A model generated the notes under the pieces. The model made no database searches. It saw nothing but the letters and a program-made list of their open reading frames with translations, and was not told where the DNA came from. Below, piece by piece: positions 3,750-32,309 of a DNA stretch of 64,000 nt (within the stretch, counting starts at the first letter, position 1; every line of letters starts with the position of its first letter). The translations under genes and the position numbers were made by a program. Where the stretch lies: contig NC_088302.1 of the NCBI RefSeq assembly GCF_032854445.1, positions 39,252,191 to 39,316,190 on the forward strand, read 5' to 3'. The DNA comes from Liolophura sinensis (taxonomy: Eukaryota; Mollusca; Polyplacophora; Chitonida; Chitonidae).

Positions 3750-5595
3750 TCCTTGTAGGCCCGTGAGTGTAAAGATAAATCCTATGTGAGTCCCTGAGTG
3801 AAAAGATAAATCCTATGTGGGTCCCTGAGTGTAAGGATAAATCCTATGTGGGTCCCTGAGTGTAAGGATAAATCCTATGTGGGTCCCTGAGTGAAAAGAT
3901 AAATCCTATGTGGGTCCCTGAGTGTAAAGATAAATCCTATGTGGGTCCCCGAGTGTAAGGATAAATCCTATATTGGTCCATAAGCGAACAAGGTCCCGTG
4001 TTGCCCACTGAGTGTAAAGCTAAATCCTGTGTAGGTCCTTAAGTGTACAAGAAAGTCCCTTGTTGACCCCTGAGTGTAAAGATAAATCCCAATTGTACAA
4101 AGAAATCTCATGTGGGTGCTTGAGTATAAAGATAAGTCCCGTGTGAGTCCTTGGGTGCAAAGATAAATCCCATGTGAGTCCTTGAGTATAAAGATAAATC
4201 CTATGTGGGTCCCTGAGTGTAAAGATAAATCCTATGTGGGTCCCCGAGTGAAAGGATAAATCCTATATTGGTCCATAAGCGAACAAGGTCCCGTGTTGCC
4301 CACTGAGTGTAAAGCTAAATCCTGTGTAGGTCCTTAAGTGTACAAGAAAGTCCATTGTTGACCCCTGAGTGTAAAGATAAATCCCAATTGTACAAAGAAA
4401 TCTCATGTGGGTCCTTGAGTATAAAGATAAATCCCATGTGTGTCCTTGAGTATAAAGATAAATCCCATGTGAGTCTTTGAGTGTAAACATAAATCCCATG
4501 TGGGTCCTTGGGTGTAAAGGTAATTCCCATGTGGATCCTTGGGCGTAAACATAAATCCCATGGGGAGTCCTTGAGGATAAAATCCCATGGGGAGTCCTTG
4601 AGGATAAAACCCCATGGGGAGTCCTTGAGGATAAATGGGTGTAAAGATAAATCCCGTGTGAGTGCTTAATTATAAAGATAAATCCCACGTGAGTCCTTGA
4701 GTGTAAAGATAAATCCCCTGTGGGTCCTTCAATATAAAAATAAATCCCATGTGAGTCCTTGGGTGCTAAGATAAATCTCATGTGGGTGCTTGAGTATAAA
4801 GATAAATCCTGTGTGAGTCCTTGGGTGCAAAGATAAATCCCATGTGAGTCCTTGAGTATAAAGATAAATCTCATGTGAGTCTTTGAGTGTAAACATAAAT
4901 CCCATGTGTGTCCTTGAGTATAAAGATAAATCCCATGTGAGTCTTTGAGTGTAAACATAAATCCCATGTGGGTCCTTGGGTGTAAAGGTAATTCCCATGT
5001 GGATCCTTGGGCGTAAACATAAATCCCATGGGGAGTCCTTGAGGATAAAATCCCATGGGGAGTCCTTGAGGATAAAATCCCATGGGGAGTCCTTGAGGAT
5101 AAATGGGTGTAAAGATAAATCCCGTGTGAGTGCTTAATTATAAAGATAAATCCCACGTGAGTCCTTGAGTGTAAAGATAAATCCCATGTGGGTCCTTCAA
5201 TATAAAAATAAATCCCATGTGAGTCCTTGGGTGCTAAGATAAATCTCATGTGGGTCCTTGAGTATAAAGATAAATCTCATGTGAGTCCTTGAGTGTAAAG
5301 ATAAATCCCATGTGGGTCCTTGTGTGCAAAGATAAATCCCATGAGAGTCCTTGAGTATAAAGATAAATTCCATGTGAGTTCTAGGGTGCATGCTGCTAAG
5401 CGTACGGCGAAGTCCCTCAGTTAAAAGGGAAGCAGAAGACAGTTAACTAGATAAATCCCATGTGGGTCCATGTGTGCAAAGATAAATCCCATGTGAGTCC
5501 TTGAGTATAAAGATAAGTTCCATATGAGTCCTTGAGTGCATGCTGCTAAGCGTACGGCGAAGTCACTCAGTTAAAAGGGGAGCAGAAGACAGTTA
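3750..5595. repeat. 31-bp minisatellite with higher-order repeats
   Basis: Units like AAAGATAAATCCCATGTGGGTCCTTGAGTAT repeat for 1.8 kb. Segments at 3960 and 4258 (about 300 bp apart), 4521 and 4989 (468 bp apart), and 5388 and 5540 (152 bp apart, containing GCTAAGCGTACGGCGAAGTC) are near-identical, showing secondary duplications. Because 31 is not divisible by 3 and the unit lacks stops on the minus strand, long minus-strand ORFs (up to 4263-5249) arise without being genes. Confidence 0.92.
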
Positions 5596-6454
5596 ACTAG
5601 GCCGATTGCTCAGATAAGGTGAAGGCATAAAACCTGCTTAATTCTTCAAAGAAAACACAACACTAGACCAAATGTATATATGTATTTTACATATATATGT
5701 ATTTTTTATTATTTTACTCGAGGTTTGTTTAATTCTACAGTGACTCTTGCTGAAAATATGGACAGAGCGTTCATACACCCTCAAGCTATCTGTTTCATAG
5801 CTGTATCTAACTCCGATTAATCCGTGGCTAGGGGATTTATAAGGAGTCGCGTTTGTGGCATCAACAATGCTTCTGTAAACAGCGACAACCAAAGCGCAAC
5901 TTAGGTCTTTCCTTCATCAATGACGACGTTGGGGATTCAACAATTTTATAGATATAGGTGATATGTATAGACCTGTTTAAAAAGTAGGCCTGTCATGAAT
6001 AAAAATGCATGGGACATAAGCGCATGGAAAGCCCCCTCTTCCTTCAGATTTGTTAACGACATTTCAAATGTATTGTGTAAGAAATACGTGAATGGTGTTT
6101 GTAGTATTGTCCAACAGTACACAGCTTTACACCAAGATTGAGCGCACTGTAGAGCAATGCAGTGTATGCCCTTGTACCGTGAAGTACTATAGAACAGAGC
6201 ATGTGTTCTATGCTCTTCGTAGCGATATAGGTGACTATAAAGTTGACAATTAATTGGCGTTAATTACACTTTCTTGTTTACAGTAAGGTGAGAAAAACAT
6301 TTATAATTTAGATGGAGACGCAGATATGATTGAGGATACAATTAACTTACAAAAACATAAAGAAAACTGTAAGTAAATAGCATCTGTCCATACTGGCTTG
6401 ACGGCGACATGTGAAGAATACCCGGTGCTAAATCAGTGAAGACCTCATAAAATG

Positions 6455-7637: not shown

Positions 7638-10600
7638 GTAAGTGTATATGTCTCCCCACTTCGACCCAAAAACTTCAGCCCAATGTCAAGGATCGATTGT
7701 TTTTGTTTTGTTTTGTTTTTTTTTTCAAGATAGATATACACCTATGATGTGTTGATATTTTTAATTTAAGCGCAATTATTAACATCATACATAGATGTGA
7801 CGGCTGATGGCCTAAATGAAAAAAGCCCCAACGGCTCTATTTTATCATCGATCATATTACTGCACAAACAGAATAATTAAAGTAAATTAAACTTAGTCAC
7901 GCGTCAGTGATTCCTCCAATGTATACGCCATAATGAACAATTATAGCTTACCTTGCCCATGGTATGGGTGATGATGTTATAGCTCGGAATAGTAGTACGT
8001 GCCCCTGCGGTAATACGGCTTACACCTAAAGGCTTTCATTTAATTTGCTGTTAAATGGTTCAGAATTGGGCTTGTTCATCAATAGTGACGACGCCAACCC
8101 CAACTATAACACCACGTTTGAATATAATATGCATATGGTATGGCATGCATTGTTATGCGATTATCATTACACCTCCCCCACTACACCCAAAAAGAACACT
8201 GAGTATTTTTGTAAGAAGTTAAACGCGTTAATGTGTTTTGATACACGTGTCTCGCGCCCTACGCGTCTACTGAATACGTAACATTTCTGTCTGTCAGATT
8301 CAGGTAATGCTCAGGTGAATACAGTTAACCTCAAGCGCCAAGACGTGGTCTCAATTTATTCATGATATAAAACTTTTAATAGTGGAGCCATTTCGCTGGG
8401 GTTTTTTTGTTTTGTTTTTTTTTTTTTTTGTTTTTTTTTTTTGTTTTTTTTTTTTTTTGTTTTTTTTTTTTCGCGATGACACACAGAATTGCAGCTATTG
8501 CATAGACTAACGTTTGACATTTTGAAATTGTTTTGTCATCAACGTCGTTGCAATTGTTTGATAATTGTAGCAGAGCTAAACCCTCTACCATAGTTTTGGA
8601 GTCTTCAGCATAGATTGATAATGATGTACTTCACTCGTTAAACTTCTCAGGATAAGGGCTCTTGCTGGCAGCAGGGTATCTTGGAGTAAACTGTCACAAA
8701 AGTTTACAGCATCAGTATCACAATACCTTATGTCAACTTAACCAAGACTGCATCATTTATTAGCACTGCGAATTACCCAGACCACTGGTTTACGCATAAA
8801 GAAACCTATGAGATTGTAGCAGATAATATATAACCAGTGGTGTTTTACCCCGTACTCAAGAATATTTCACTTATAGGACGGCGGTATGAAACCGGACAAT
8901 GGGAAACCCACAACCATCCGCAGGTTGCTGGGAGATCTTTCCACGTACCATTTATTTGATTTATTTGATTGGTGTTTTAAGCCATACTCAAGAATATTTC
9001 ACTTATACGACGGCGACCAGCATTATGGTGAGAGGAAACCGGACAGAAACCAGTGGAAATACACGACCATCCGCAGGTTGCTGATGGACCTTCCCACTTA
9101 CGGCCGGAGATGAAGCCAGCATGAGCTCGACTTGATCTCACAGAGACCACATTGGTGAGAGGCTCCTGGTTCATTACGCTACGCTAGCGCGCTAACCAAC
9201 TGAGCCACGGAGGCCCCCTCCCATGTACGAGTTCTGTCATGTATAATTTATTAGATGTGCATCGCATCCTTGTTCAGAACATTATTATGCATAGACAATA
9301 TATTCTAAGAGGTGATCCCAAATACCCAACATGCAAAAATATTTTCAAATACCTTTTTCTTCTAAAAGTCAAAAAAGGACAAAAAGACCATATCTGCACA
9401 TTAAGCATTCACGGTCTTTCATCTGATTTTGGCATCAGTTTTATGTTTCCTTCCCTTGTTACCGTGTTTATGCTTTGTTCCAACAGAAATCGACATAGCC
9501 ACCACGGTAACAGCGTTTATGGTTTGTTCCGATAGGTATTGCCATCGCCACCAGGATTAACAGTGGTTATCGTTTCTTCCCACAGGTATCGCCATCGCCA
9601 CCACGGTAACAGTGTTTATCCTAAACTGTTACTACAATGTCATCATGGCCTGGGCCTTCTACTATCTGTTCTCCTCGTTTACATCCGTCCTGCCCTGGTC
9701 CCACTGTGACAACTACTGGAACACGGACTTCTGCACCACTAACTTCACCAAGCTAGCCGATCAGAACATCACCGTGGGAAACGACGTAATTAACCTGGCC
9801 AATAGAAGCCTGTGTTACGACATTGTCGAGAACAACGGCTCAGTGACGTTTTGGGATGGCACGAACGCGACGACCAATCACTCTGCTTGGGCCTTCTGCG
9901 AGGCCGTCATCTTTGATGACAAGAAAGTTGACTCGGTTATTGAATTCTGGGAGTAAGTTCTCTTTCAAATTCAGTGTCAAAGATTTTCTAAATAACGTGT
10001 TATAATTCGTGGAATAGGACTTTCGTCTTTGTGTTACATATAATTATTAACACAATTGCTGTAGGAGAAAAAGACCTCGGGGTCACGGATCAATCTTAGA
10101 CTTAAGTCAAAGTTTCACATCACTTCAAAATTGTTATTTCTTACACATTGCTTGACTACGTACATTCTAGGAAAGTAAGTATAAAACAAATTTCAGCTGA
10201 AATAGTCGACAGAAACATGTCAATTTTAATGACTGAAATTTTGACCTAAGTTCGCTCCGTGAACCAGGGGCCATGACTTTTCACATTTTTACAAGTCTTT
10301 TACGCTTAAAGTAATTCAGTCCCAAAGATTGCAAATAAACAATTGCCAATCTGCACCCGTGTTCGCGGGAAATAGTACCCCCATTGGTGTGCTAAGTTGG
10401 ACTGAAGAGTATTTAAGTTAAAATGCTTCGAACAGATTTATTGTCATCAAAGAGGCACAAAAGAACCCGGTGGTATGGATATTAACCATGAACAAAGGAT
10501 GAAGAAGAAAACTGAAAACTATTAACTACAACCAAAAGTTGTTTTACATCATCAGTAAACTGAACCTCCGTGAGCGAGGTGGTTACCGTACAGCGCGGCG

Positions 10601-13600: not shown

Positions 13601-16600
13601 TCTTGCGAGACTGTCACAAGGTGACGTACGATGCCCGACACCTGGTCATTGAGGTCGGAGTATCGATTCCAGCTCTCGTCCTCGCGGCTATAAGTCAGGA
13701 GATTTAGCAGTAACCATTTACCCCCGATTCTGCTCTACTATATCTTTAATTCATGTTTAATCAATTCGTCCCTCAGACATCCATTTTCCTTTTTCTCCAC
13801 CCATGAGAATATTCTTGAGGACGACGATAGACAATATTAAGTGAACAAAATACATAGGTGTTTCATTCCATGTGTTTTGTATGCTTGCGTGGTAGGCGTA
13901 GATTTTAACCAGTTCCTTTTATGGTCGTACTTTGTAAGCGTGCTACGCGTAGGATTTGAAAATAGGCTATCTCTTGTGTTCGTGCCTTGTAAGCCTGTAA
14001 AGCTTGGACTTGAACATCTTCTGTGATCCCACTTTGTAAGCCTGTAAATCGTGGAATTTACCCCTCACTCATGTGTTCGTGTTTTGTAAGTCTGCTAGGT
14101 GTGGACTTTACTCCTCACTCATGTGTTTGTGTTTTGTAAGTCTGCTTGGCGTGGACTACCCCTTACTCCTGTGTTCATGTTTTGTTAGTCTGCTAGGCGT
14201 GGACATTACCCTTCACTCATGTGTTCATGTTTTGTAAGCGTGTTAGGCGTGGACTTTACCCCTTACTCACGTGCTGATGGTTTGTAAGCCCGCTAGGCGT
14301 GGACTTTACCCCTTACTCACGTGTTAATGCTTTGTTAGTCTGCTAGGCGTGGACTTTACCCTTCACTCATGTGTTCATGTTTTGTAAGCGTGTTAGGTGG
14401 GGACTTTACCCCTTACTCCTGTGTTCATGTTTTGTAAGCGTGCTAGGCGTGGACTTTACCCCCCACTCATGTGTTCATGTTTTGTAAGTCTGCTAAGCGT
14501 GGACTTTACACTTTACTCATGTGTTCATGTTTTGTAAGCCTGCTAAACGTGGACTTTACCCCTTACTCATTTGTTTATGTTTTTTAAGCGTGTTAGGTGT
14601 GGACTTTACACCTTACTCATGTGTTCATGTTTTGTAAGCCTGCTAGGCGTGGACATATCCCTTACTCTTGTGTTCATGTTTTGTAAGTCTTCTAGGCGTG
14701 GATTTTAACCACTTCCTTTTGTTTTATGTAGTTTGTAGGTGTGGAAGGCGTCATTACTACAGTCGTTGACCAATGGCCAGGCTATCTCAGGAAGGGTTAC
14801 AGACGAGAGATCTTCATCGGGATCGTGTGTTTTGTAACTTTCCTTGTAGGATTACCCATGTGTACAGAGGTAACAAGCAAAGGCAAAGAATACAAACATT
14901 AAAATTAGCTTCAGAAAACACCAATTAAACCTGAATTCGAAAATATCGTTTCTTATTTTATTTTATTTTTATTTATTTCGATTTTTTAAATGTCAAACCT
15001 TTAAATTTTAAGGTTGGCTCTGTAGGCCATGTTTGATGCCAATGTTGGTTTTATGGATCGTTTTTGGTGCCAACGTTTGCTTTATATGGACCACTTTTGG
15101 TGGCAATCACGTTCCAAAATTTGTTTCGCCTCAAACCCGATATTTAATGCTGGAGGGACTTCTCTGATTTGATTTGATTTTACTTGGTGTTTTACGCGGT
15201 AGTCAAGAATATTCCATTTATACAACGGCGGCCAGCATCATGATGGGAGGAAACCGCCAACTTATCTGTGTTTGTGAGGACGCATTACACTAGCGAACTA
15301 AACTATAATTTTTTCAGATGTGAAAATAATGTGTCACATTATTGGATTCCATCATGATTAACATGTTTATGAAGCCCACCTGAGATATCAAGTATTTAAA
15401 CATTTTATTTAGTGAAAAGCATTCATTAAAAATAAGCAAAGGTGATGTTAGACATAGTTTACAGCAGACTTTCCGCTGAGTCTGATTTTTTTTAAAATTA
15501 AGACTGAATAACACAATTTGTAATATCTGGGGGTTCTTTTTAGTTCTCTGCGTTGTTAATGTAACATAATAATGCTGCCCGAAATCCTCCTATATTATCA
15601 TTCGGGCAAAATAAAGCGTGAACTAATTTCAAATACCATTATTATGCTTTCCCTGTAAAGTTTTTTAGAACATTTAATAAAACAGTCAACAACCCACATT
15701 CAGTGGCCACCTGTTTTTGGACACGCTACATATATGGTGTTGAACTGTTGCTCATAACAATGTAAACAATGTTAACTTCTTCCTCTATTCACATGTACAC
15801 CTGTTCTTTGTCCACAGGGTGGTATGTACGTCTTTCAACTATTCGACTACTACGGCGGCAGTAAGATCGTACTGTTGGTTTCCTTCATAGAGTGCGCTGC
15901 CGTATCCTACGTCTATGGTAAGAGGCTTACATGTATTCCCCTAGAGGACACGTAAATGAAGTTTCGATCTGGACCTGTTTAAAAGATCTATATATAAGCA
16001 CGTATTATACGTCTGGAGCTAAGCGGAGTAATTAAAATGGATTTGTTTTCAAAGATGCTATTTAAACAAGAAATCAAAACATGAAATAACCATGTGCCTT
16101 TTATAACGTCATCAAAAAAGTACGGATTTCTCTACGTTCAGATTGATGATACTCTATAATGATACAATTTACAGACGATAACATAATTTTGGCCGTCATC
16201 AGCCAGAGCCGAAAGTAGGTTTGCTTATGAGATAGTTTGTTGAAGCAGAATTACGCTTATATTCAATTGTGTTTCCAGGAATCAGACGCTTCTACGACAA
16301 CCTCGAAATGATGCTGGGATATCGTATTGGACCGTACATGTTCATCAGCTGGTTGATTACGTCACCCATTTACTGCCTGGTGAGTGGAGAAGTCACGAAC
16401 AAGAACAATACATCATTTGAAGTATTAGGTTTAATAGTGGTTTGCGTGATACCCCAGAACAAAGACCCAGGAGCCCCTCATTAACGCGGTCGCTGTGAGT
16501 TCAAGTCCAACTCGAACTAACCTCCTCTCCGGTCATACGCGGGAAGGTATTCTCGCAGCCTGCGGATGGCCGTGAGTTCCCTAAGGCTCTGTCCAGTTTC

Positions 16601-18952
16601 CTCCCTCCACAATCCTGGCCGTCGTATAGTATAAATGAAATACACTTGAGGATAACGTAAAAGTACAATCAAATAAATAAACAATGCAGTGCATATGTTA
16701 CTGCTCAAATGTTCAACTTTGATAGATTTGTGTGTTGAAATAAAACTTAATTTATGTGTGCTCTAACTTTAGCTCCTAAATTAACAAAATAAACTTTTTT
16801 TAAATCAATTTTTAAATGTTGACTTCGGCAAAACTGACCATTTGGTATTTCTTTCCTTACACTGTTAAGTGTGATAATTGACATATTGCTTTGGATAATA
16901 ATAAATTAGTGATGATTCAGTAATAATAACTTCGTGATAATTTTGTAATAATAACATGGTGATGATTCACTATTACAACTTAGTGATGATTTACTAATAA
17001 TATTTTAGTGATGATTCTGTAATAATAACTTAGGGATGATTTTATAATAATAACGTGGTGATAATTCAGTGACGATTCTGTAATAATACTTAGTGACGAT
17101 GCTATAATAATAACGTGGTTATGATTCAGTAATAGTAACTTAGTCATGATTCTCTTGTAATAAAGTAACTTAGTCATGATTCTCTTGTAATAAAGTAACG
17201 TGGTGATGATTCACTAATAACAACTTAGTGATGATTCACTAATAATATCTTAGTGAAGATTTTATAACAGTAACGTGGTGATAATTCAGTAATAATGACT
17301 TAGAGATGATTCAGCGATAATAACTTAGTAATAATTCAGTTATTATGACTTAGTGACGATTCTCTTAGTGCATGTCATGGCCTCATCTTTTCTGTTGGTC
17401 ATTTATTTACGGATGCTTGTCATTTTCAGATTTTTTAGATATATTCCGGTTTTTAGAGAAACCCTTTGTGTGGATGAATTCGTGGTGGAAGTTTTCCCCC
17501 TTTTCACGACAATAATTAGGATTGACATAAAACCCATTAAGTACTGCATTTCACCCAAGTGACACATTTTACTTCATTCTGAATGACATATCCATCTTTT
17601 ACAGCTATGCACTTACAGCTGTAGAAGTTCTTTGTGAAGTTTGATTAACGTTTTAATAGAAAAAAGCTTTAGTGTTGGCCTCAAAAGCATCCTTTGTGTG
17701 TTTCTGAAAGTACATTTTGGCCAGATTTTTATGGGCCTAACCCTAACCTGAACACCTTACACAAATGCATTCTATTCTTCTGTCTGTGAACAAGATTTAA
17801 TAACATGTATATCCATGTATCAACTCTTTTGATCTCTCACTCAGTAGCACGCTTAGTTTTGATCCTCGGTTGTTTCTCAGGTGATCTTCGTCCTGGGTGT
17901 GATCAACTATTCGGAGCTGTCCTACAAACGGCCGTCTGTTGTCTATGAGTACCCAGCCTGGGCCGTGGGTATAGGTTGGTGCCTTGCGCTCATCTCTATC
18001 ATCTGGATACCCATCGTCATGATATACAAGCTGATCAAATACTCCAACGTTATCCGGGTAAGTCATGATATACCAGTTGATCAAATACTACAACGTTATA
18101 TCGGCAAAATGTACAAGATGATTCAATAATCCAACGCTTTGGCGGTAAGTCATGGTATGCAGGCTGATCAACGTTTTCGCTGTAAGTCATGATATAAAAG
18201 ATGATCAAATAATCCAACGTTATCTCCATAAGTCCTAATATACAAGTTGATCACAGACTCCAACGTTAACCCTGTAAATCATGATATACAAGATAATTTA
18301 ATATTACAAAATTAACCCTGTAAGTCATGATATACAAGATGATCACATAGTCCAACGTTATCGCAGTAAGTCATGATATACAAGATGATCCCAGACTCCA
18401 ACGTTAACCCTGTAAGTCATGATATACTAGATGATCACATAGTCCAACGTTATAGCGGTAAGTCATGATATACAAGATCATCACATACGACAACGCCTTC
18501 GCGGTAAGTCATTATATACAACGCATCAAATACTCCAACTTCAGTGAAAAGAGTCATGACGTCTTTATTTATATTCTTCATCTACCATCCAAATCGCATC
18601 CTATCAGTAGCACTGTAATGTAACTGTGCGGCCATCCAATCTCAGGAATACTACAGTGAAACTAGATGAACAGGTGATTCTGATGTTGTTGGTGTTACAG
18701 ATACTCAAACTCCTATGCCACCCGTCCACTCTCAAATCTCACCAGTTGCGGCCGCTGGACATGGACGAGGAGTCCGTGGATTACCTGGTGGATTCCAAGA
18801 CCATCACTGTAAACGTCCCCAGACGACGTACTTTTGACGGAGGAAACACCGACCTAGATGTGACCCCAAGTTCATCTGACAAGCTGGATCAGCCGCCATC
18901 TTATGACAAATTCGTACACACTAACGCCGCCTATGATGCTCATATTGACTAG
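7506..18952 (+). CDS. SLC6A6-like: SLC6 Na+/Cl--dependent transporter, taurine/creatine/GABA type (5'-incomplete, 12 exons)
   Basis: Joined exons: 7506-7637, 9586-9952, 11053-11185, 11569-11703, 12366-12469, 12874-12998, 13342-13454, 14732-14869, 15818-15917, 16279-16379, 17881-18057, 18701-18952. Every junction is AG/GT and phases match (1,1,2,0,0,2,1,0,0,1,0,0), giving about 624 residues to a TAG stop. Seen: TM2 through TM12, the EL2 cysteine pair, several EL2 N-glycosylation sequons, TM6 TQIFFS, TM7 TNSGTS, TM8 LGLDS and TM10 [12 protein letters not shown]. Family knowledge: plasma-membrane symporters moving an amino acid or osmolyte with Na+ and Cl-. The Cl- ligands (TM2 Tyr, TM6 Gln and Ser, TM7 Asn and Ser) and the TM8 Na2 Asp-Ser are present. 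Phrases such as AQEQGVDIA and [11 protein letters not shown] resemble vertebrate taurine transporters, so an osmolyte role is an inference; creatine or GABA transport cannot be excluded without TM1. No TM1 exon was found upstream, so the start lies outside the window or was missed. Confidence 0.93.
8400..8472. repeat. T-rich low-complexity tract
   Basis: Almost pure T with single G interruptions, in the intron between the TM2 and TM3 exons. The minus-strand ORF over it is poly-lysine only. Confidence 0.9.
8835..9217 (-). mobile_element. SINE, two antisense copies in tandem (partial 8835-8945, full 8946-9217)
   Basis: The second copy is essentially full length, from TTTATTTGATTGGTGTTTTA to GAGCCACGGAGGCCCC, where the complement of the tRNA head (GGCTCAGTTGGTTAGCGC) is clear. 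The first lacks the head. Confidence 0.88.
9487..9585 (+). repeat. Tandem duplicates of the TM3 exon 3' splice-site edge
   Basis: Two ~50-bp units (9487-9535, 9536-9585) each contain a degenerate copy of the exon start ATCGCCATCGCCACCACGGTAACAG, then a pyrimidine stretch and an AG (CGATAG, CCACAG). A half unit ends in CAACAG at 9486. Only the third AG leads into the true exon. Use of either upstream AG meets a stop within about 25-30 codons. Confidence 0.85.
9586..9952 (+). CDS. SLC6 exon: TM3 and large extracellular loop 2
   Basis: Acceptor CCCACAG at 9579-9585; donor GA|GTAAGT. TM3 carries [15 protein letters not shown], with the Tyr equivalent to the substrate-site Tyr of GAT-type carriers. 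It is followed by [16 protein letters not shown], the conserved loop-2 cysteine pair nine residues apart. The loop holds sequons NFT, NIT, NRS, NGS, NAT and NHS. It is long, as is usual in this subfamily. Confidence 0.93.
10077..10270. mobile_element. TIR-type MITE, copy 1 (SLC6 intron)
   Basis: Left end GGGTCACGGATC...GACTTAAGTCAAAGTTTCA pairs with right end TGAAATTTTGACCTAAGTTC...CCGTGAACC as ~37-bp inverted repeats. It lacks coding capacity. The same ends recur at 39868-40078. Confidence 0.65.
10730..10978 (+). mobile_element. SINE, sense copy in SLC6 intron
   Basis: Head GGGGCCTACGTGGCCGAGAA, body with ATAATGCTGGCCGCCGTCG, and tail TACGGCGTAAAACATCAGTC then AAATGAGTAAATAA. Confidence 0.85.
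11053..11185 (+). CDS. SLC6 exon: TM4
   Basis: Enters in phase 2 after TTGCAG and ends AAG|GTAAGA in phase 0. Encodes [14 protein letters not shown], then TM4 [16 protein letters not shown] and the KGIKSSGK intracellular turn, all typical of GABA/taurine/creatine carriers. A SINE copy ends about 75 bp upstream. Confidence 0.93.
11255..11420. repeat. Hairpin repeat in SLC6 intron
   Basis: ACAAGATGTGTACCACA at 11275-11291 is perfectly inverted at 11379-11395, with weaker pairing continuing outward (TTGTGTA on both sides). MITE-like; no coding potential. Confidence 0.6.
11569..11703 (+). CDS. SLC6 exon: TM5
   Basis: Exactly 45 codons in phase 0 between TTTACAG and CAG|GTACTC. Encodes [20 protein letters not shown] (TM5), followed by [18 protein letters not shown] of extracellular loop 3. 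Confidence 0.93.
12030..12127 (-). mobile_element. SINE 3' fragment, antisense
   Basis: TTATTTATATGGTATTTACGTCGTCCTCAAGAATATTTC through GGGAGGAAACCAGG; truncated. Confidence 0.8.
12366..12469 (+). CDS. SLC6 exon: TM6
   Basis: Acceptor CCCTTAG; donor AG|GTAGGT in phase 2. Encodes [20 protein letters not shown] and [12 protein letters not shown]. The Gln and Ser of TQIFFS are chloride-site residues, and the FSYSIALG stretch is the unwound substrate-binding part of TM6. Confidence 0.93.
12540..12835. repeat. TTCATGAC-rich simple tandem repeat in SLC6 intron
   Basis: Degenerate units such as GTTCATGACAATGGTTG recur to within about 40 bp of the TM7 exon acceptor. It has no resemblance to the exon. 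Confidence 0.75.
12874..12998 (+). CDS. SLC6 exon: TM7
   Basis: Enters in phase 2 (AG|A, Arg) after TTTCAG and ends in phase 1 at G|GTAAGC. Encodes [18 protein letters not shown], then [20 protein letters not shown]. The Asn and second Ser of TNSGTS match chloride ligands. A TTCATGAC-type simple repeat abuts the acceptor on the intron side. Confidence 0.93.
13342..13454 (+). CDS. SLC6 exon: extracellular loop 4 and first part of TM8
   Basis: Acceptor TTGTAG; donor GAG|GTATAA. Encodes [20 protein letters not shown], then [18 protein letters not shown]. Leu-Asp-Ser of LGLDS are the Na2 ligands. The last residue is Glu where the family usually has Gln (LDSQ). Confidence 0.92.
13850..14731. repeat. 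50-bp intronic minisatellite in register with the TM8/TM9 exon
   Basis: About 17 units of TTTGTAAG(C/T)CTGCTAGGCGTGGAC...TTACTCATGTGTTCATG. TTTGTA recurs at 13876, 13931, 14033, 14083, 14133, 14231, 14281, 14381, 14431, 14481, 14531, 14631, 14680 and finally 14732, where it is the exon's first codons. Confidence 0.88.
14732..14869 (+). CDS. SLC6 exon: end of TM8, TM9
   Basis: Forty-six codons in phase 0. Acceptor TTATGTAG at 14724-14731; donor GAG|GTAACA. Encodes [16 protein letters not shown], then [20 protein letters not shown] (TM9) and VGLPMCTE. The exon start lies in register with a 50-bp intronic minisatellite directly upstream. Confidence 0.92.
15165..15260 (-). mobile_element. SINE 3' fragment, antisense
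   Basis: TGATTTTACTTGGTGTTTTACGCGG, AAGAATATTCCATTTATACAACGGCGGCC, then GGGAGGAAACCGCC; truncated. Confidence 0.8.
15818..15917 (+). CDS. SLC6 exon: TM10
   Basis: Acceptor TCCACAG; donor G|GTAAGA in phase 1. Encodes [20 protein letters not shown], then [26 protein letters not shown] is a hallmark of the taurine/creatine branch rather than glycine or monoamine carriers. Confidence 0.93.
16279..16379 (+). CDS. SLC6 exon: intracellular loop 5 and first half of TM11
   Basis: Acceptor TTTCCAG; donor CTG|GTGAGT, phase 0. Encodes [20 protein letters not shown], then [18 protein letters not shown] and the LGYR-GP region match the family's TM10-TM11 connector. Confidence 0.92.
16465..16683 (+). mobile_element. 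SINE, sense copy truncated at the head, in SLC6 intron
   Basis: Starts near GGAGCCCCTCATTAACGCGG, contains GAGTTCAAGTCC (box B) and ends with CAATCAAATAAATAAAC. Confidence 0.82.
16890..17370. repeat. AT-rich tandem repeat in SLC6 intron
   Basis: Units of roughly 25 bp like TAATAATAACTTAGTGATGATTCAG alternate with ...AACGTGGTGAT... variants. Non-coding. Confidence 0.8.
17881..18057 (+). CDS. SLC6 exon: TM11 end and TM12
   Basis: Fifty-nine codons in phase 0 between TTTCTCAG and CGG|GTAAGT. Encodes [16 protein letters not shown], the extracellular [18 protein letters not shown], and TM12 ending [19 protein letters not shown]. Its last ~42 bp and donor are the first unit of an 11-unit 46-bp tandem array in the next intron. 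Confidence 0.92.
18016..18550 (+). repeat. 46-bp minisatellite seeded by the TM12 exon end and its donor
   Basis: Unit 0 is exonic (ATGATATACAAGCTGATC...ACGTTATCCGG then GTAAGTC). About ten intronic copies follow. GTAAGT is intact at 18058 (true), 18145, 18182, 18320, 18366, 18412, 18458 and 18504, and degraded at 18228 and 18274. From 18182 on the spacing is exactly 46 bp. Confidence 0.92.
18701..18952 (+). CDS. SLC6 terminal exon: cytoplasmic C-tail with PPxY motif
   Basis: Acceptor GTTACAG; 83 codons then TAG. Begins [20 protein letters not shown]; the tail is acidic and Ser/Thr-rich. A PPSY sequence (codons 18893-18904) lies 15 residues before the end, a form recognised by WW domains such as those of NEDD4-type ubiquitin ligases in other transporters. 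No polyadenylation signal could be chosen with confidence downstream; an ATTAAA at about 18987 is very close to the stop. Confidence 0.9.
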   Translation: MLKLLCHPSTLKSHQLRPLDMDEESVDYLVDSKTITVNVPRRRTFDGGNTDLDVTPSSSDKLDQPPSYDKFVHTNAAYDAHID

Positions 18953-26246: not shown

Positions 26247-26992
26247 TCACCTTTCCGTCAGAATGTTTATATTAAAAATGATATAGAAAAAGAGGACATA
26301 GAAATACATACAGTTATGTTTGAAAAGTACAGATCCTGTCGAAGTGCAAAAATCTTTCGGCCTCGTTTTCGTCGTATCGTCAAGCTGAAGGCCCCGGATG
26401 AAGGTCGTTGGGTGATTCTCGGCCACGGGATAGTCGAGGTAAGACAAAACGGCTTTGTCGTGAGGATGCGGACGAAATCTTACGGTGATCGGATCGCTAC
26501 CATCGTCTGCCCCCATAACATACCACAACGGTCCAACGTATGTGGCCACAAATGTGTTCGGATGTCTCATAGCTTTCAACACCATTTCGCCAAAGCGCCC
26601 GTAATGAAGTCTCAAAGGTGCATTTTCAGAACCACCTAGTGAGATAGTTATGTTACCAAAAGCTAAATGTCCGTAAACCCCTGTGTAATCCGCTAGAGGG
26701 CGTGTCGGCTTCCGGCTTGCGCCGTGTTGATCAGGTCTGGGCTGTTTCGGTTTCTCAGGACCCGGCCGTTCGTAAGGTAGCGGGAATTTACAGGCGGTTG
26801 TCATATTCAGCCATGATCGTTCCCCTAGTAACAGATCAGCGGCGAAATACCCGACTTCCTGTGTGACATATCGTTTGTTCCGGTCCAGCGGTCCACTGAC
26901 GGAGAAGAACAGCCCAGCGTCAACATCCGGGAACAGCCATAAACCGGATGTATAGGAAATGATTCCACCAGAATGCCAGAGCTTCCGATAAC
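26247..26992 (-). CDS. Serine hydrolase exon 5: HSG motif and C-terminal beta domain
   Basis: Acceptor CTCTGCAG. Encodes YRKLWHSGGIISYTSGLWLF with HSG in the KTG position. A Pro/Lys-rich linker (ERPGPEKPKQPRPDQ) and a beta domain (LADYTGVYGHLAFGNITI) follow. The last ~20 residues are hydrophobic and aromatic (YFYVLFFYIIFNINI). These could be a membrane tail, or read-through past a GTATGT donor-like site after FKHN, in which case the true C-terminus is in an unseen exon. The stop at 26247 is used by default. Confidence 0.82.
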
Positions 26993-29900
26993 CTGCAGAG
27001 GGACAAAAAAAAGGAGAGCTCAGTCATGACAACATGGCCCAAAAGGCATCGCTTCGATTTAATCCAGAAATATTGTTGCACAGCTGCGGTGACGGAGGAG
27101 ATAGTCAGCCTCGTAAAGGAATCCATACCAAGGTTCAATTCCTAGTTAGGCTTCTGTAGGATATCAAAGCTGGCAATCTTTGTGCATCCTCGCATAGCAC
27201 TCGACATTAAGGGTTGAGCCAGGTACTGGTCGGCGTCCTTATGTTGAGAGTGTGGATCGTCGCCCTTGGTGACTTGGGCTTTCCACTTGTTTTGATTGTT
27301 TGGGGGCTTTTACAAACTGAGTGCTGAAGGTATACCACTGACCATTAGCGAGTAAACAACCATATTTTCCATGTACGATATACAAAAAATTTCGCTGAGC
27401 AAAACTAGCGCGATGCTATACTGGAGAACCAACAAATGTAATTCAACCTAAGCCGGCATACAAGCGCTGAAGACCAATTATTGCTGTCATGGCCTTAAAA
27501 CGACGCAAGCACGAAACCAGGATTGAGCCAAATCCGATCCACTGAAAGGGCACAATTCAATTTCCATTGGCTGTTATAAGTTACAAAAGCGGTGTCAATG
27601 TATACACACTTATGAACAAGTTGGTGTTGTTTCGTATTGGTTAACAACGAAATGTTATGAAATGTGCATGATTTGGATCAGTAAAAACACATAACGTATG
27701 CATGGGACTGCGTGTAGATTAAGAAGCCTTACCTCTGTAATTAGAGTTCACCCAGCCAAGAGCATATGCTATTGTAACATCATGGATCGGATACGTTGGC
27801 TTTATTTTGTCATTTGGAAAAAAACCTCCCGGCATTTGCCCCTCATAAGTGTCCGCCATTTTGAGGAGGTACGGGGAAAGAGGATTGTGAGATCGCAGCA
27901 TTGCGGAGATATTCAGGTGAAACTTGATCCATTTTGTCATGTCCTCAGCTGTGGAGAATACGGAGCCTGCAGGTCCAGCAGGATTGACGCTTCTGCAAGT
28001 AACGTCACGAATGTGAGATGAAAATGCTCTAGACGGTAAGGCAGAAACATGCCATGGGTCCCTGTGTGTCTAATATGCAGAAATGTTACCTAATCCTGAA
28101 TCTAACCTGAATTATTGCGTATTGCTTTATAATCAATATCGTTAAAACGGTACTGCTAAGTGTCAAGGTGAATGCTACAGGTGATTGAGCATTCCGCCCC
28201 GGATCAAACAAATTACCCTCAAAAGAAATTCCAATTCGCTATTCAAGTTAGTGTGTTTATGAGTGTTAACCCGTCCCCTTTACCTCTAAAGAATACATGA
28301 AGCGATTGATTTTTGTTTCTTAATATGCAATATGGAATGTGTCCTGACGTATAAATGTATAAATAAAGCTTCTGAGCTTTTTCCTTGGGGATGAAAATGC
28401 TTTAAACTCCAGTTTCCTACGGTCCCAGTGGTCAGTCTGGAAATTTAGTAGCCTGTGTTCGTGATGTCAAGGGTGGTAGCTGTCTAAACAACACCACGGG
28501 AGAAAGAGCCCAGCTGGAACGGCGTTAAGCTGGCCCCGCTAATCCTGTAAGTTCATAGTTGGCATAGGTCCGAAAAATTTTGGCCGTTGACCGAATGGAT
28601 GCATCAGTTTAAGGGTAGTTAAGAAAATATACTTCAAAAACTATTTTTCAAGTTTTAAATAAAACCATTATCTTTGTTTTAGAGTTTCTTTTCATGTATC
28701 TTTAACCCGTACTTACGTTATCAAGTCTTTTGAAATATTCACTAGCTCCCCATTCACTGTTATATACGGTAGAGCAAAGTTTTCAAAACCGTGGTCATCG
28801 TTTACGAAGCCCGTTGACGTCATGCCGAGCGGGGTGAAGATGTTGTCGCGCACCAAGTCTTCCCAGCTAGCTTTACCCAGAACTTCCGCCACGTAACCCG
28901 CCAGGGAGTACATGTAGTTGTTGTATAAGAAGTTTGTCCGGATAGGCTCGGTGGCCTCCATGAATTGTAATCGCCTGTAAGAAGAAGAAATGTTCGCTCC
29001 GCTATGATGGAAATATTACTGAGGTGTTAATGAAGGGGCCTCAAGTTTAAATTCAAAGCTGAACCAAAAACATTTATTTATTTATTACATTGTTGCGTGA
29101 TGCCATAATAAAGATTTTTCACCATTGCAATCACTTTCGTGGGTGGAGGGAACCGGGGTGACCGGTGTAAGCCTTTGGCAAGTTACCGACGAACTTTCCC
29201 ACATATGGCATACAGATATGTGCAATGTATGGAGAGGTAGCATGACCTACTGTTGGCCGCCATAGTAGAGTACTGCGGCTATCCAAGCCCATGTTAACGT
29301 CTCCAATATGACTGACTGCCTATTGTGCTGCTAGGGTGATAATGTCACGTGTATCCCCTCTGATGATGGAAGACAAGTGGTTTTCAAGGAAGGACAGACG
29401 GGTCAAACGGTCAAAAAGGCTTCGTCGACAGCTTATTGTCAAGACACCAAAACCAGTGCGAACTGGAAAGATATGCCGTGTAATGACTAGTAAAGAAATA
29501 TGTCCTAATCACAGTTCAAGACATTAGCCTTTAAAATAATCAAAATAGATCAGAAGTCAAATTGCCAACTTGTAAAATGCTGCCCACTGACCCGAATTAT
29601 CTCGTCATGCATAAAAAGCGGTAGCAAAACAAATATGCTACCGTATACAGAAGAAATTACCTGACAAGATCTGACCTAGTGACGTCATCAGGGAAACCAT
29701 TCAGAAGAGCACTAAAATAACTGGGGACACCCATTTTGTGAGCGAGGAGGTCCCTCAAGTTAGCGATGTCAGTGCGCAACTCATCGCTGAAGCGGAAGTC
29801 ATCTCCAAGGATCTTGCGAACAGGTGTATCCCATGTGATACTACAAAAAAACCCAGGATATAGCACTGTAGCAGCTGTTGCCGAAAATAGTATAAAAAGT

Positions 29901-31696
29901 ACAAAACCTTCGAAAAGACCAATATTCAATTTAAAAATTATAATTATTTCCAATAAATATACATAGATAAATACAGATTTCTTTAAAATAAAACACATTT
30001 CATATTGATAAAAGAGACACTCATGTAAAGTGCCTATAATCTGAGGGAAGCTGGATCGATAGATACAAAAGTTTGATTTCATGGTTCAAGATTGCACTGC
30101 GTCGGTCTTTAGTGAAAACCTTGAATTCTCTAGTCGGTGCCAAGCCAAATTTATTGACATTGACAATCGTGGTACTTTCTCATTTTGTGTCAGCATGTTG
30201 TTAAACATCCAATCAATCAATCATCCAGTTTTTATTAGATACCAAGTATGAAAGGAGGACGCAAGCACTCACAGCCATTTTGCGAGGTACACCCCAAGAA
30301 CTACAGATTCATTCATTCAAGCACCTGAACGTCGTACTATGAGTGAAAATGCGTTGAACCAAACAAATATATAGATAAGGGAGATAACTGAAGTAGCCTG
30401 GACAATATTGCTATAGCGATCAAAACACACAAGAGCAGAACTAAACTAATTGCTGCTGATGCAAAAGACAAAAACCCAGCCGGGTCCCAAATGGATATCA
30501 AGTACAAGCTATTATACAGGTCTCTTTTTTTCTTTTACAATGCTCCTCTGTTTTAAGGAAATCATATTGAATAGGTAAATTAGCCGTTCTTTCATTAGCC
30601 TGAAACGTTCCACTCTGCACATACGAACGCGTTACGGCACACTACAAGAAAGTGACGAATTACTCAGGATTAAGTTAAGTTAACAAAATGTTAACAAATA
30701 ATGTTAACACTTACACGATTTAATAGCGGAAGAAAATGGAGTAACGGAGTCAGCCGCAGCACTTACCATTTACCTGACAAGTCCGCTGACTTAACGCCGA
30801 GCCAGAGAGACCTAGATACGAGTCTGTGTCCTCACTGGCCAAACGCTGATCCGCTGCGGCGATCAAAATGTCGGTCTCAAGCCGCCGATGTCACATATCT
30901 ATGTTATTTTTCTACAGCGCGCAAAATTAAAGGCATTCTGTCTATTTATGTTCTTGGAAATTTTGTGACAGTAAGGATATGATGATGTCGTTAATAAGAA
31001 AGAATTCTCAAAGGTGGACAGCGGGAAACGTTTCCCAATGTCTACTGTTCTCACAAATATCATGTCTTCGTCAAACTTGATTTCAAGTCCATTCCTAATA
31101 TATGCAGTGATATAACTTTTCCATATAACCTCGTAAATGAACTTTTCGTAAATTGTTGTGAAAGCTAAGTCAAGCAACCTTTTTAAGAAATTAGCTTAAA
31201 TGTCGCAACTTGTGAATAAGGTGTCTCAAGACATGGTATGTGTTGTCAAGCATGACCTGAGTACGGCGTAAAACACCATTCAAATAAATAAATAACTAGG
31301 ACATGATCTTGTTCGCAAAACCTGACACTCATTATAAAGTCACCTTACGAAATGATCACTCCACAAAGAAATAACTTACTTCTGTTCCTGAGACAAGATC
31401 TTCCCCAGTATGGTAGAGGTAAAAGCCTTAGACAAGGATCCAATGCAAAACCGTGTGTTCCGTGTTGCAGGCTTCCCGTTTTCTCTATCCGCCTTACCGA
31501 ATCCTCTACTCCACACAAAGGAGTCGCCTTTCACCAAAGTTACCGCCATTGCTGGTACATTTCGACATTTTACCAATTTTTGAACGTATGCCGTCAACTC
31601 GTTCAGCTGATCCCTTGTCGGTATTCCAGTCAAGTCCAGGTGCGCTGCACAAAAGGTACACAAAATGAATCCCAGCACGCCAGTATAGCTATACAT
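26247..31696 (-). CDS. Secreted serine beta-lactamase-like / PBP-like protein (gigasin-6/LACTB type), 5 exons
   Basis: Minus-strand exons in order: 31696-31380, 29840-29661, 28974-28717, 27992-27733, 26992-26247. Phases 2,2,2,1 match and the join is 586 codons plus TGA. Residues 1-22 (MYSYTGVLGFILCTFCAAHL...) look like a signal peptide. Motifs in the order of class C beta-lactamases/PBPs: S87-L-S-K90 (nucleophile Ser and base Lys), Y183-N-N185 (YxN), H345-S-G347 in the KTG position. SVFSTAEDMTKW and FTPLGMTSTGF also fit the fold. HSG in place of KTG is known in esterase/LACTB-like members, so peptidase or esterase activity is more likely than beta-lactam hydrolysis (inference). A C-terminal domain with LADYTGVYGHLAFGNITI resembles the all-beta domain that often follows this fold. 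Bivalve shell matrices contain a relative, gigasin-6. AATAAA occurs on this strand at 26240-26235 and 26066-26061. Confidence 0.88.
27733..27992 (-). CDS. Serine hydrolase exon 4
   Basis: Acceptor CTTGCAG; donor AGAG|GTAAGG, phase 1. Encodes SVNPAGPAGSVFSTAEDMTK then WIKFHLNISAMLRSH and YALGWVNSNYRG. The GSVFSTAEDM segment is the block that precedes the helical region in this family, and the exon ends just before the HSG motif. Confidence 0.87.
28717..28974 (-). CDS. Serine hydrolase exon 3: YxN motif
   Basis: Acceptor CTTACAG; donor AC|GTAAGT. Encodes RLQFMEATEPIRTNFLYNN then YMYSLAGYVAEVLGKASWED and DNIFTPLGMTSTGF. Y183-N-N185 is the YxN catalytic motif, and the downstream PLGM-T block is strongly conserved in PBP-like hydrolases. 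Confidence 0.88.
29661..29840 (-). CDS. Serine hydrolase exon 2
   Basis: Acceptor TTTTTTTGTAG; donor CAG|GTAATT. The first base completes Asn, giving SQEQNITWDTPVRKIL across the junction. It continues ILGDDFRFSDELRTDIANLR and DLLAHKMGVPSYFSALL. LLAHKMG corresponds to the family's LLSHRTG block. Confidence 0.87.
31250..31300 (+). mobile_element. SINE 3' tail fragment
   Basis: GAGTACGGCGTAAAACACCA then TTCAAATAAATAAATAAC. Lies in intron 1 of the minus-strand hydrolase gene. Confidence 0.75.
31380..31696 (-). CDS. Serine hydrolase exon 1: signal peptide and SxxK motif
   Basis: ATG at 31696; donor AA|GTAAGT at 31380. It ends in phase 2, so the frame-extended QK* readthrough is an artefact. It encodes the signal peptide, NVPAMAVTLVKGDSFVWSRG and FCIGSLSKAFTST with the active-site Ser87. 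On the minus strand a CTGCAG lies just upstream of the ATG and could be a 5'-UTR acceptor. Confidence 0.88.
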
Positions 31697-32309
31697 GTTT
31701 GGTTATATCTCTCCACTGCAGATATAAAGAGAGACAGAATCACACAACGACGCACTGAAGCACAAATAGCAAAGCCCAGAGACTCTTCTTGCCCCAGTAA
31801 TCCATACCATAAAAAGTGCTTTTGCTGGACGCCTTTAAAATTTCCATCATTTTGAAACTTTTTCCCCTTTGATCACGAAACTTTTACATATGCGCCCATG
31901 ACAGAATCTGTCTGACTTCCGGTTAGTTCAGGATAGCAATCAGAGCAAACAAGAAGCTTCCTCGTAATCGTTATATCACTTAATTATTGTCCTGAAAACG
32001 AAATCGACGGGAGTCTTCAGATCTAAGACTATACTGCATCAACTCTAGGCTTGTCATCGGGCCACTTTATCTGCATTAGTTCTCCCCGACATTTTCTATC
32101 CTCGCACCTTACGACGAACTTCCTCTGGTATCGACAGCTCGGCAGTCATCAGAACAGCACTCTACTGTATCCAGCATAATCAGCTGAAACCGCCACAGTG
32201 CTTTTCCACCAGTATTCCGGAGATTTAATTATCATTCACACAAATTCGTAGCCATGTCACGAAAGGTAAAAACTCAACCTTGGTAGTTCGAGTAGCTGGG
32301 GTTTAATGT

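Follow-up and report, generated by a model that had tools for sequence, protein, structure and literature searches.

The closest described counterparts of the element reported here are the mirages of amphioxus, minisatellite-like tandem copies of an exon/intron boundary that affect both donors and acceptors, with AG/GT present in many of the copies; in the available text of the sources they are described for Adh3 and for the globin genes BflGb6 and BflGb9, and repeats in PGBD5 and troponin C are compared with them (PMC3087553, PMC3902484). The Adh3 mirage is reported to show somatic length instability, and reverse-transcription PCR data suggest that mirage splicing is undisturbed (PMC3087553, PMC3902484; available text). 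Here we describe an array of this type in a 64,000-nucleotide (nt) stretch of the genome of the chiton Liolophura sinensis (NCBI RefSeq assembly GCF_032854445.1, contig NC_088302.1, positions 39,252,191 to 39,316,190 of the forward strand; hereafter the window, which supplies all coordinates below unless a contig is named). The assembly species was first named Liolophura japonica, and the name was later corrected to L. sinensis (PMC12441733). The end of the penultimate coding exon of an SLC6 transporter gene in the window, together with its 5′ splice site, has been amplified into a tandem array of 46-base-pair (bp) units that runs into the following intron. With a probability of roughly 0.8, this array would represent neutral growth of a minisatellite over a splice junction, in which the true site was kept beside the exon and the copies have no selected role.

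The chiton donor array resembles the mirages in its minisatellite character (period 46, 11.7 copies) and in a unit that spans the boundary (42 exonic plus 4 intronic bases), and in the chiton genome, too, donors and acceptors are both affected and many copies keep splice signals. The amphioxus Adh3 units, given as 10-72 bp in the available text, cover the chiton unit size, whereas those of BflGb6 measure 150-160 bp and number 6 and 3 in its two haplotypes (PMC3087553, PMC3902484). The chiton differs further in being a mollusc and in carrying some arrays of tens of copies (loci L119/L157 and L008/L155, see below). A comparable anatomy is known from the human CBS gene, where a 31-bp variable number tandem repeat (VNTR), c.1444_1467+7(16_21), has by its name 24 exonic and 7 intronic bases in 16-21 copies, so that exon end and donor are covered together by one unit and repeated many times, as with the chiton's 42 + 4 (PMC2630376, available text). 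The human copy number is polymorphic and a link to phenotype has been published, whereas the chiton array is known from one assembly. Internal tandem repeats in human segmental duplications are minisatellites of ~30 bp that can sit at exon-intron boundaries and may create introns, according to the available text (PMC2812944); there they alter the gene structure of recent paralogues. Lastly, introns can be gained via tandem duplication of segments with splice signals (PMC4974935, PMC3087553; available text). Such duplications share with the chiton array the tandem copies bearing splice signals, but there the new intron arises within coding sequence, whereas in the chiton the copies lie inside an intron.

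A limited literature search turned up no such array described for a chiton or any other mollusc. In its main text, the paper on the chiton genome mentions neither tandem repeats nor minisatellites (PMC12005716), and an earthworm metallothionein paper describes intronic minisatellites, none of which is placed on an exon border in the portion of the text available (PMC12783039). Judged by their sequences, the chiton arrays fit the known mirage kind, and what appears to be new is the mollusc host, the frequency in a sample of exons, and array ends that largely ignore the border.

Anatomy of the donor array

The window lies on contig C8 of the assembly, and a search of the genome (609,464,459 bases in 632 contigs) gave only one match for the array locus. 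The mitochondrial contig, C632, is read with the invertebrate code, and its genes, placed by eye from the open frames, follow the order of chitons and other molluscs and not that of lancelets. The host gene encodes an SLC6 transporter, whose closest solved structures are taurine, betaine, and γ-aminobutyric acid (GABA) transporters; its top match in phmmer is the taurine transporter 9jcv, and the penultimate exon, covered by an open frame at 17863-18129, matches positions 476-523 of the Pfam profile PF00209. The features of this region are as follows.

17881..18057, forward strand: penultimate coding exon of an SLC6 transporter (taurine/GABA type), in which the membrane domain ends (open frame, PF00209, phmmer)
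18016..18061, forward strand: unit 1, the last 42 exonic bases plus GTAA, the source of the array (alignment, unit identities)
18058..18063, forward strand: authentic donor CGG/GTAAGT, with the strongest U1 pairing of the tested sites, -11.4 kcal/mol
18062..18550, forward strand: 11 intronic units of 37-46 bp, the end of the degenerate last unit being set by eye (end in Tandem Repeats Finder 18539)
18127..18129, forward strand: TAA, first in-frame stop, reached if the authentic donor is unused (open frame 17863-18129)
18145..18150, forward strand: decoy GTAAGT, U1 -9.3 kcal/mol, 15 nt from stop to splice point
18182..18187, forward strand: decoy GTAAGT, U1 -5.4 kcal/mol, 52 nt from stop to splice point
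18320..18325, forward strand: decoy GTAAGT, U1 -5.4 kcal/mol
18366..18371, forward strand: decoy GTAAGT, U1 -5.6 kcal/mol
18412..18417, forward strand: decoy GTAAGT, U1 -5.4 kcal/mol
18458..18463, forward strand: decoy GTAAGT, U1 -9.3 kcal/mol
18504..18509, forward strand: decoy GTAAGT, U1 -9.3 kcal/mol
18701..18952, forward strand: last coding exon (C-terminal tail), missing from any decoy product

Tandem Repeats Finder (TRF) places the array at 18016-18539 with period 46, 11.7 copies, and a score of 453. By count it consists of 12 units, one exonic and 11 intronic, of which u2, u4, and u12 are incomplete or have lost length through indels. When the 42 exonic bases were aligned locally with the intron, the score was 63, against a maximum of 26 over 300 intron and 300 exon-piece dinucleotide shuffles. 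The original prediction, made from the letters of the window, that an exon end and its 5′ splice site form a tandem array is thus borne out by the TRF period and by an alignment far beyond the shuffles, and amplification into the intron by the alignment score and the unit identities given below. Its description of the first unit stood for the 42 exonic bases; the intronic share had to be corrected to GTAA only, as unit 2 already begins with GTCATG, which completes the donor and copies exonic bases. The seven decoy positions were correctly called, GTAAGT occurring within 18000-18760 only at 18058 and at these sites. The stop at 18127-18129 likewise held, its TAA ending the open frame 17863-18129, and use of any decoy does take in this stop and drop the last exon, as had been claimed. 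The last exon comprises 84 codons including the stop, and the tail that it encodes, absent from decoy products, contains PPSY, which we take to be a possible PPxY motif.

Direction of copying

Mean identity with the intronic units is 0.81 for the exon unit, compared with 0.75 among the intronic units themselves, and 4 of 46 positions separate the exon unit from the intronic consensus. As regards concerted evolution within the cluster with its border copies set aside, a trait of mirages, some inner pairs are closest to each other (u8/u10, 0.93; u6/u9, 0.91), but the exon unit is likewise close to most units. The frame that holds the exonic copy aligns without gaps, if weakly at the last residues, with vertebrate taurine transporters through the point where their membrane domain ends. 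Because of this alignment and the greater nearness of the exon unit, the exon is the source of the array, copying having gone from exon to intron. The converse, an array that arose first in the intron and later supplied the exon end, is very unlikely. Sequence common to exon end and array is what it would leave, and for amphioxus globins such repeats have been put forward as a source of exons or introns (PMC3087553, available text), but the exonic copy is central among the units and lies in a frame that aligns, if weakly, to vertebrate transporters.

Pairwise identity of the copies ranges from 58 to 93%, which also bears on whether the array is an artefact of assembly or chance. Repeats are prone to misassembly, and one candidate elsewhere in the genome (L153, see below) lies beside a run of N; against this stand the divergence of the copies, an alignment far beyond shuffles, and the length of the array, ~500 bp, much shorter than one HiFi read with a mean of 8,347 bp (PMC11068029, available text). 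An artefact is therefore highly improbable.

Splice-junction arrays elsewhere in the genome

Recurrence was assessed in 171 exons, each with 600 bp flanks: 72 matching PF00209 (SLC6), 79 matching PF00067 (cytochrome P450), and 20 matching PF00118 (chaperonin). Sampled rows were shorter than 700 bp and had no internal stop; the row of the window gene itself and 11 PF00083 rows were left out. All profile lists consist of best candidates, the PF00118 rows being the first 20 qualifying from a list of 50, and flanks of adjacent exons overlap in part. Each exon core was compared with its own flank and passed with a score above 31, the maximum of 840 comparisons with unrelated flanks; this null was built from SLC6 and P450 loci and applied to the chaperonin loci too.

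Copies of the exon's own border scored above the null in 7/171 exons (L047, L118, L119, L038, L147, L163, and L169), and TRF with inspection added L131 and L144, so that tandem copies over the exon's own splice site are present in 9/171. Weak members among the nine are L131, with 5-6 exonic bases, and L147, with two diverged copies. Donors are affected at 18058 in the window and at L047, L118, L119, L147, L163, and L169; acceptors at 9586 in the window, at L038, L131, and L144, and at the exon after L008. Copy numbers form a series from two (L118, L147) through three (L038) up to tens (L119/L157), and L118 is an exact 28-bp tandem copy.

At L119/L157 (G000:C10:19670000-19674139), 57-bp units (19 codons) of a P450 exon end are repeated at the donor, and 34 GTAAGT are counted from the authentic site, the last of them past the array; this array contains a longer piece of its exon, the frame staying open for ~2.5 units. 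The exon after L008 carries an acceptor array of tens of copies broken by a SINE-like (short interspersed nuclear element-like) insert. This array, in an SLC6 gene, lies within L155 (G000:C8:50216400-50218300), and its insert (~920-1180 on the reverse strand) is presumably derived from a tRNA. L008 itself scored 32, via the array of the next exon's acceptor, and stands outside the nine. Two donor arrays lie at chaperonin (Cpn60_TCP1) exons, and housekeeping genes are thus not spared: a 66-bp (22-codon) array at L163 (G000:C8:53405371-53406762) and a 109-bp array at L169 (G000:C1:72037729-72039078). At L163 the frame is open through six intronic units, and read-through would therefore add in-frame repeats. 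At L169 an intronic copy matches without a difference along 102 bases, so that part of the growth or exchange there is recent.

Several loci resemble the nine and were kept apart from them. L110 (G000:C11:21035912-21037411) has a 31-bp array over a P450 stop codon, not a splice site, that continues past it. L086 and L116 have doublets of 18-19 bp with an unclear boundary. L153 (G000:C10:10585897-10587237) scored 29, below the null maximum; its 18-bp exon-start repeat precedes a run of ~200 N that ends at the exon, and this gap possibly hides another acceptor array. L158, upstream of the window, was covered by a TRF scan alone.

The host gene itself provides a second case, and a further array that was considered as a third.

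9461..9619, forward strand: second boundary array of the host gene, three ~49-bp units over the acceptor CACAG/GTATCGCC of the exon starting at 9586 (TRF, alignment)
14033..14707, forward strand: 50-bp intronic array of 13.6 copies (TRF)

The acceptor array reached an alignment score of 65 against a shuffle maximum of 29. The array at 14033-14707 was rejected as a boundary array, its score with the next exon being 26, below a shuffle maximum of 33.

Two other regions of the window are recorded here. At 3750-5600 there is a 31-bp array of ~1.8 kb with an open frame of 337 amino acids on the minus strand and a higher-order repeat of 468 bp, and at 26247-31702, minus strand, open frames resemble serine beta-lactamase-like exons as judged by eye. 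Elsewhere in the assembly, contig C99 has seven COX1 matches ~15.5 kb apart, each with an in-frame TGA, and the mitochondrial contig C632 measures 15,209 bp; C99 would be either a head-to-tail mitochondrial concatemer or an assembly artefact.

Position of arrays relative to splice sites

For the comparison of array ends with exon borders, arrays were taken as TRF rows with score of at least 50, period of at least 18, and at least 1.85 copies, and merging of overlapping rows left 62 unique arrays among the 171 exons; L147 and L153, which TRF does not call as arrays, fall outside this set. Boundaries were chosen by a simple scoring script and set by hand for L038, L047, L118, L119, L131, L144, L147, L163, and L169; the hand-set boundaries of L047, L118, L147, and L163 are off by one base. 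Eight exon-proximal ends, L110 included, reach into the exon by more than 5 bp. The remaining ends number 8 (including L131, 5 bp inside the exon), 3, 9, 4, 3, 6, 7, 5, 4, and 4 in successive 50-bp steps of intron, with 1 beyond. Array ends are thus nearly uniform over the border, averaging 5.3 for each 50-bp step of intron. L020 was tried as a boundary array and rejected; it begins 9 bp past the donor and has no exon sequence in it.

A window-based test, whose null came from flanks of the other family, gave hits at 5/302 boundaries (L110 among them), 131/1812 random interior intron points, and 0/125 mid-exon points, and missed L118, L131, and L147. Since an array is hit repeatedly inside and only once at its edge, these raw rates are not a fair comparison, and array ends were used for this reason. 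By that measure the arrays neither avoid splice sites nor clearly target them, although a mild excess at the border is possible.

An alternative is a process directed at junctions, such as repair of damage linked to transcription and splicing, that would favor copying of splice junctions. Spanning arrays are ~2x the seeding expectation and the same kind of array occurs in amphioxus (PMC3087553, available text), but the ends are spread roughly evenly over the border, L110 spans a stop codon, and the boundary rate of 5/302 stands against 131/1812 for random intron points, the latter inflated by long arrays. Such a process is accordingly rated unlikely.

Retention of copied splice motifs

Exact counts of the splice hexamer were compared with the median hexamer of each unit; in this test the consensus given by TRF spans a multiple of the unit at L008 and L047. 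The counts were 34 vs 33 at L119, 18 vs 19 at L008, 7 vs 8 at L144, and 5 vs 5 at L131, while the three-unit acceptor array of the window (0 vs 1) has too few units to judge. The arrays show no general sign of retention or of purging of copied splice motifs, and the window donor array stands at the better-kept end of the range.

Some of the counts weigh against neutral growth and are gathered here. In the window donor array GTAAGT occurs 8 times with the authentic site counted in, where the median is 5; of the 46 hexamers of the unit, 5 attain 8 copies, GTAAGT being one of them, and at L047 the splice hexamer occurs 5 times against a median of 3. As for position, TRF-called spanning arrays amount to 7/55 (L110 included) where ~2.9 would be expected from random seeding in 151 exons, and 9 array ends fall within exons, where an average 50-bp step of intron holds 5.3. 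The spanning arrays are thus somewhat more frequent than under simple random seeding, and junctions may be mildly preferred.

Decoy donors and splicing

Site strength was calculated as the energy of the duplex with the 5′ end of U1. Run for each site, this calculation ranks all seven decoys below 18058; three of them have G at -1 (18145, 18458, and 18504, each -9.3 kcal/mol) and four do not. Nonsense-mediated decay follows a 50-55 nt rule. The product of the first decoy, with 15 nt from stop to splice point, falls under this distance and could escape decay, and for the five distal decoys (18320 onward) at least 190 nt lie between stop and splice point.

In a regulatory ladder, the decoys would compete with the authentic donor for U1 and yield isoforms that stop 23 residues past the exon and lack the cytoplasmic tail, and nonsense-mediated decay would target some of these. 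This is improbable, even though seven GTAAGT are intact, three of them with G at -1, the first decoy product could evade decay, and the donor hexamer is retained better than the bulk of the unit. Similar in anatomy, the human CBS VNTR is also reportedly linked to reduced enzyme activity (Lievers 2001, by its title). On the other side, U1 pairing is strongest at the authentic site, G at -1 is missing from four decoys, 4/5 of the other arrays with enough copies show no special retention of the splice motif, and the amphioxus mirage data suggest undisturbed splicing (PMC3087553, PMC3902484; available text). The functions put forward in the original prediction, a buffer, a splicing-regulatory ladder, or a source of truncated isoforms, are therefore unsupported: the decoys are weaker for U1 and motif retention is ordinary in four other arrays. 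They are weakened further by like arrays at unrelated exons, which show no clear preference for splice sites.

Origin and significance

Under neutral growth, a short segment spanning the exon end and the first intron bases would have been duplicated in tandem by chance, through slippage or repair of a staggered break, and the array would then have been extended on its intron side via further slippage or unequal exchange. The intronic copies would be free to drift, the exonic copy being constrained by the protein. The spliceosome would pick the authentic donor as the exon-proximal site, and rare use of a decoy would give a truncated or decaying transcript; the array is presumably tolerated because the authentic donor adjoins the real exon and has the best U1 pairing.

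A broader reading, which we consider improbable, is that a frequent process in chitons, independent of that in lancelets, seeds minisatellites at exon borders with some preference for junctions, and that some of the ladders are used, tuning isoforms or feeding intron and exon change. The units of L119 and L163, both multiples of three, may be cited beside it. If it were true, transporter, P450, and chaperonin genes would carry variable arrays of decoy sites.

For gene prediction the arrays call for caution, as exons can be run into them, which happened in the profile matches at L047 and L008. Wherever near-identical donors or acceptors are arrayed next to the true one, the choice made by the spliceosome is put to a natural test. 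About one in 20 sampled exons carries such an array in this mollusc, a host remote from the lancelets and humans in which repeats of the kind were described. Introns rich in minisatellites may thus give rise to splice-junction arrays as a general by-product, and these may be standing raw material for change in gene structure.

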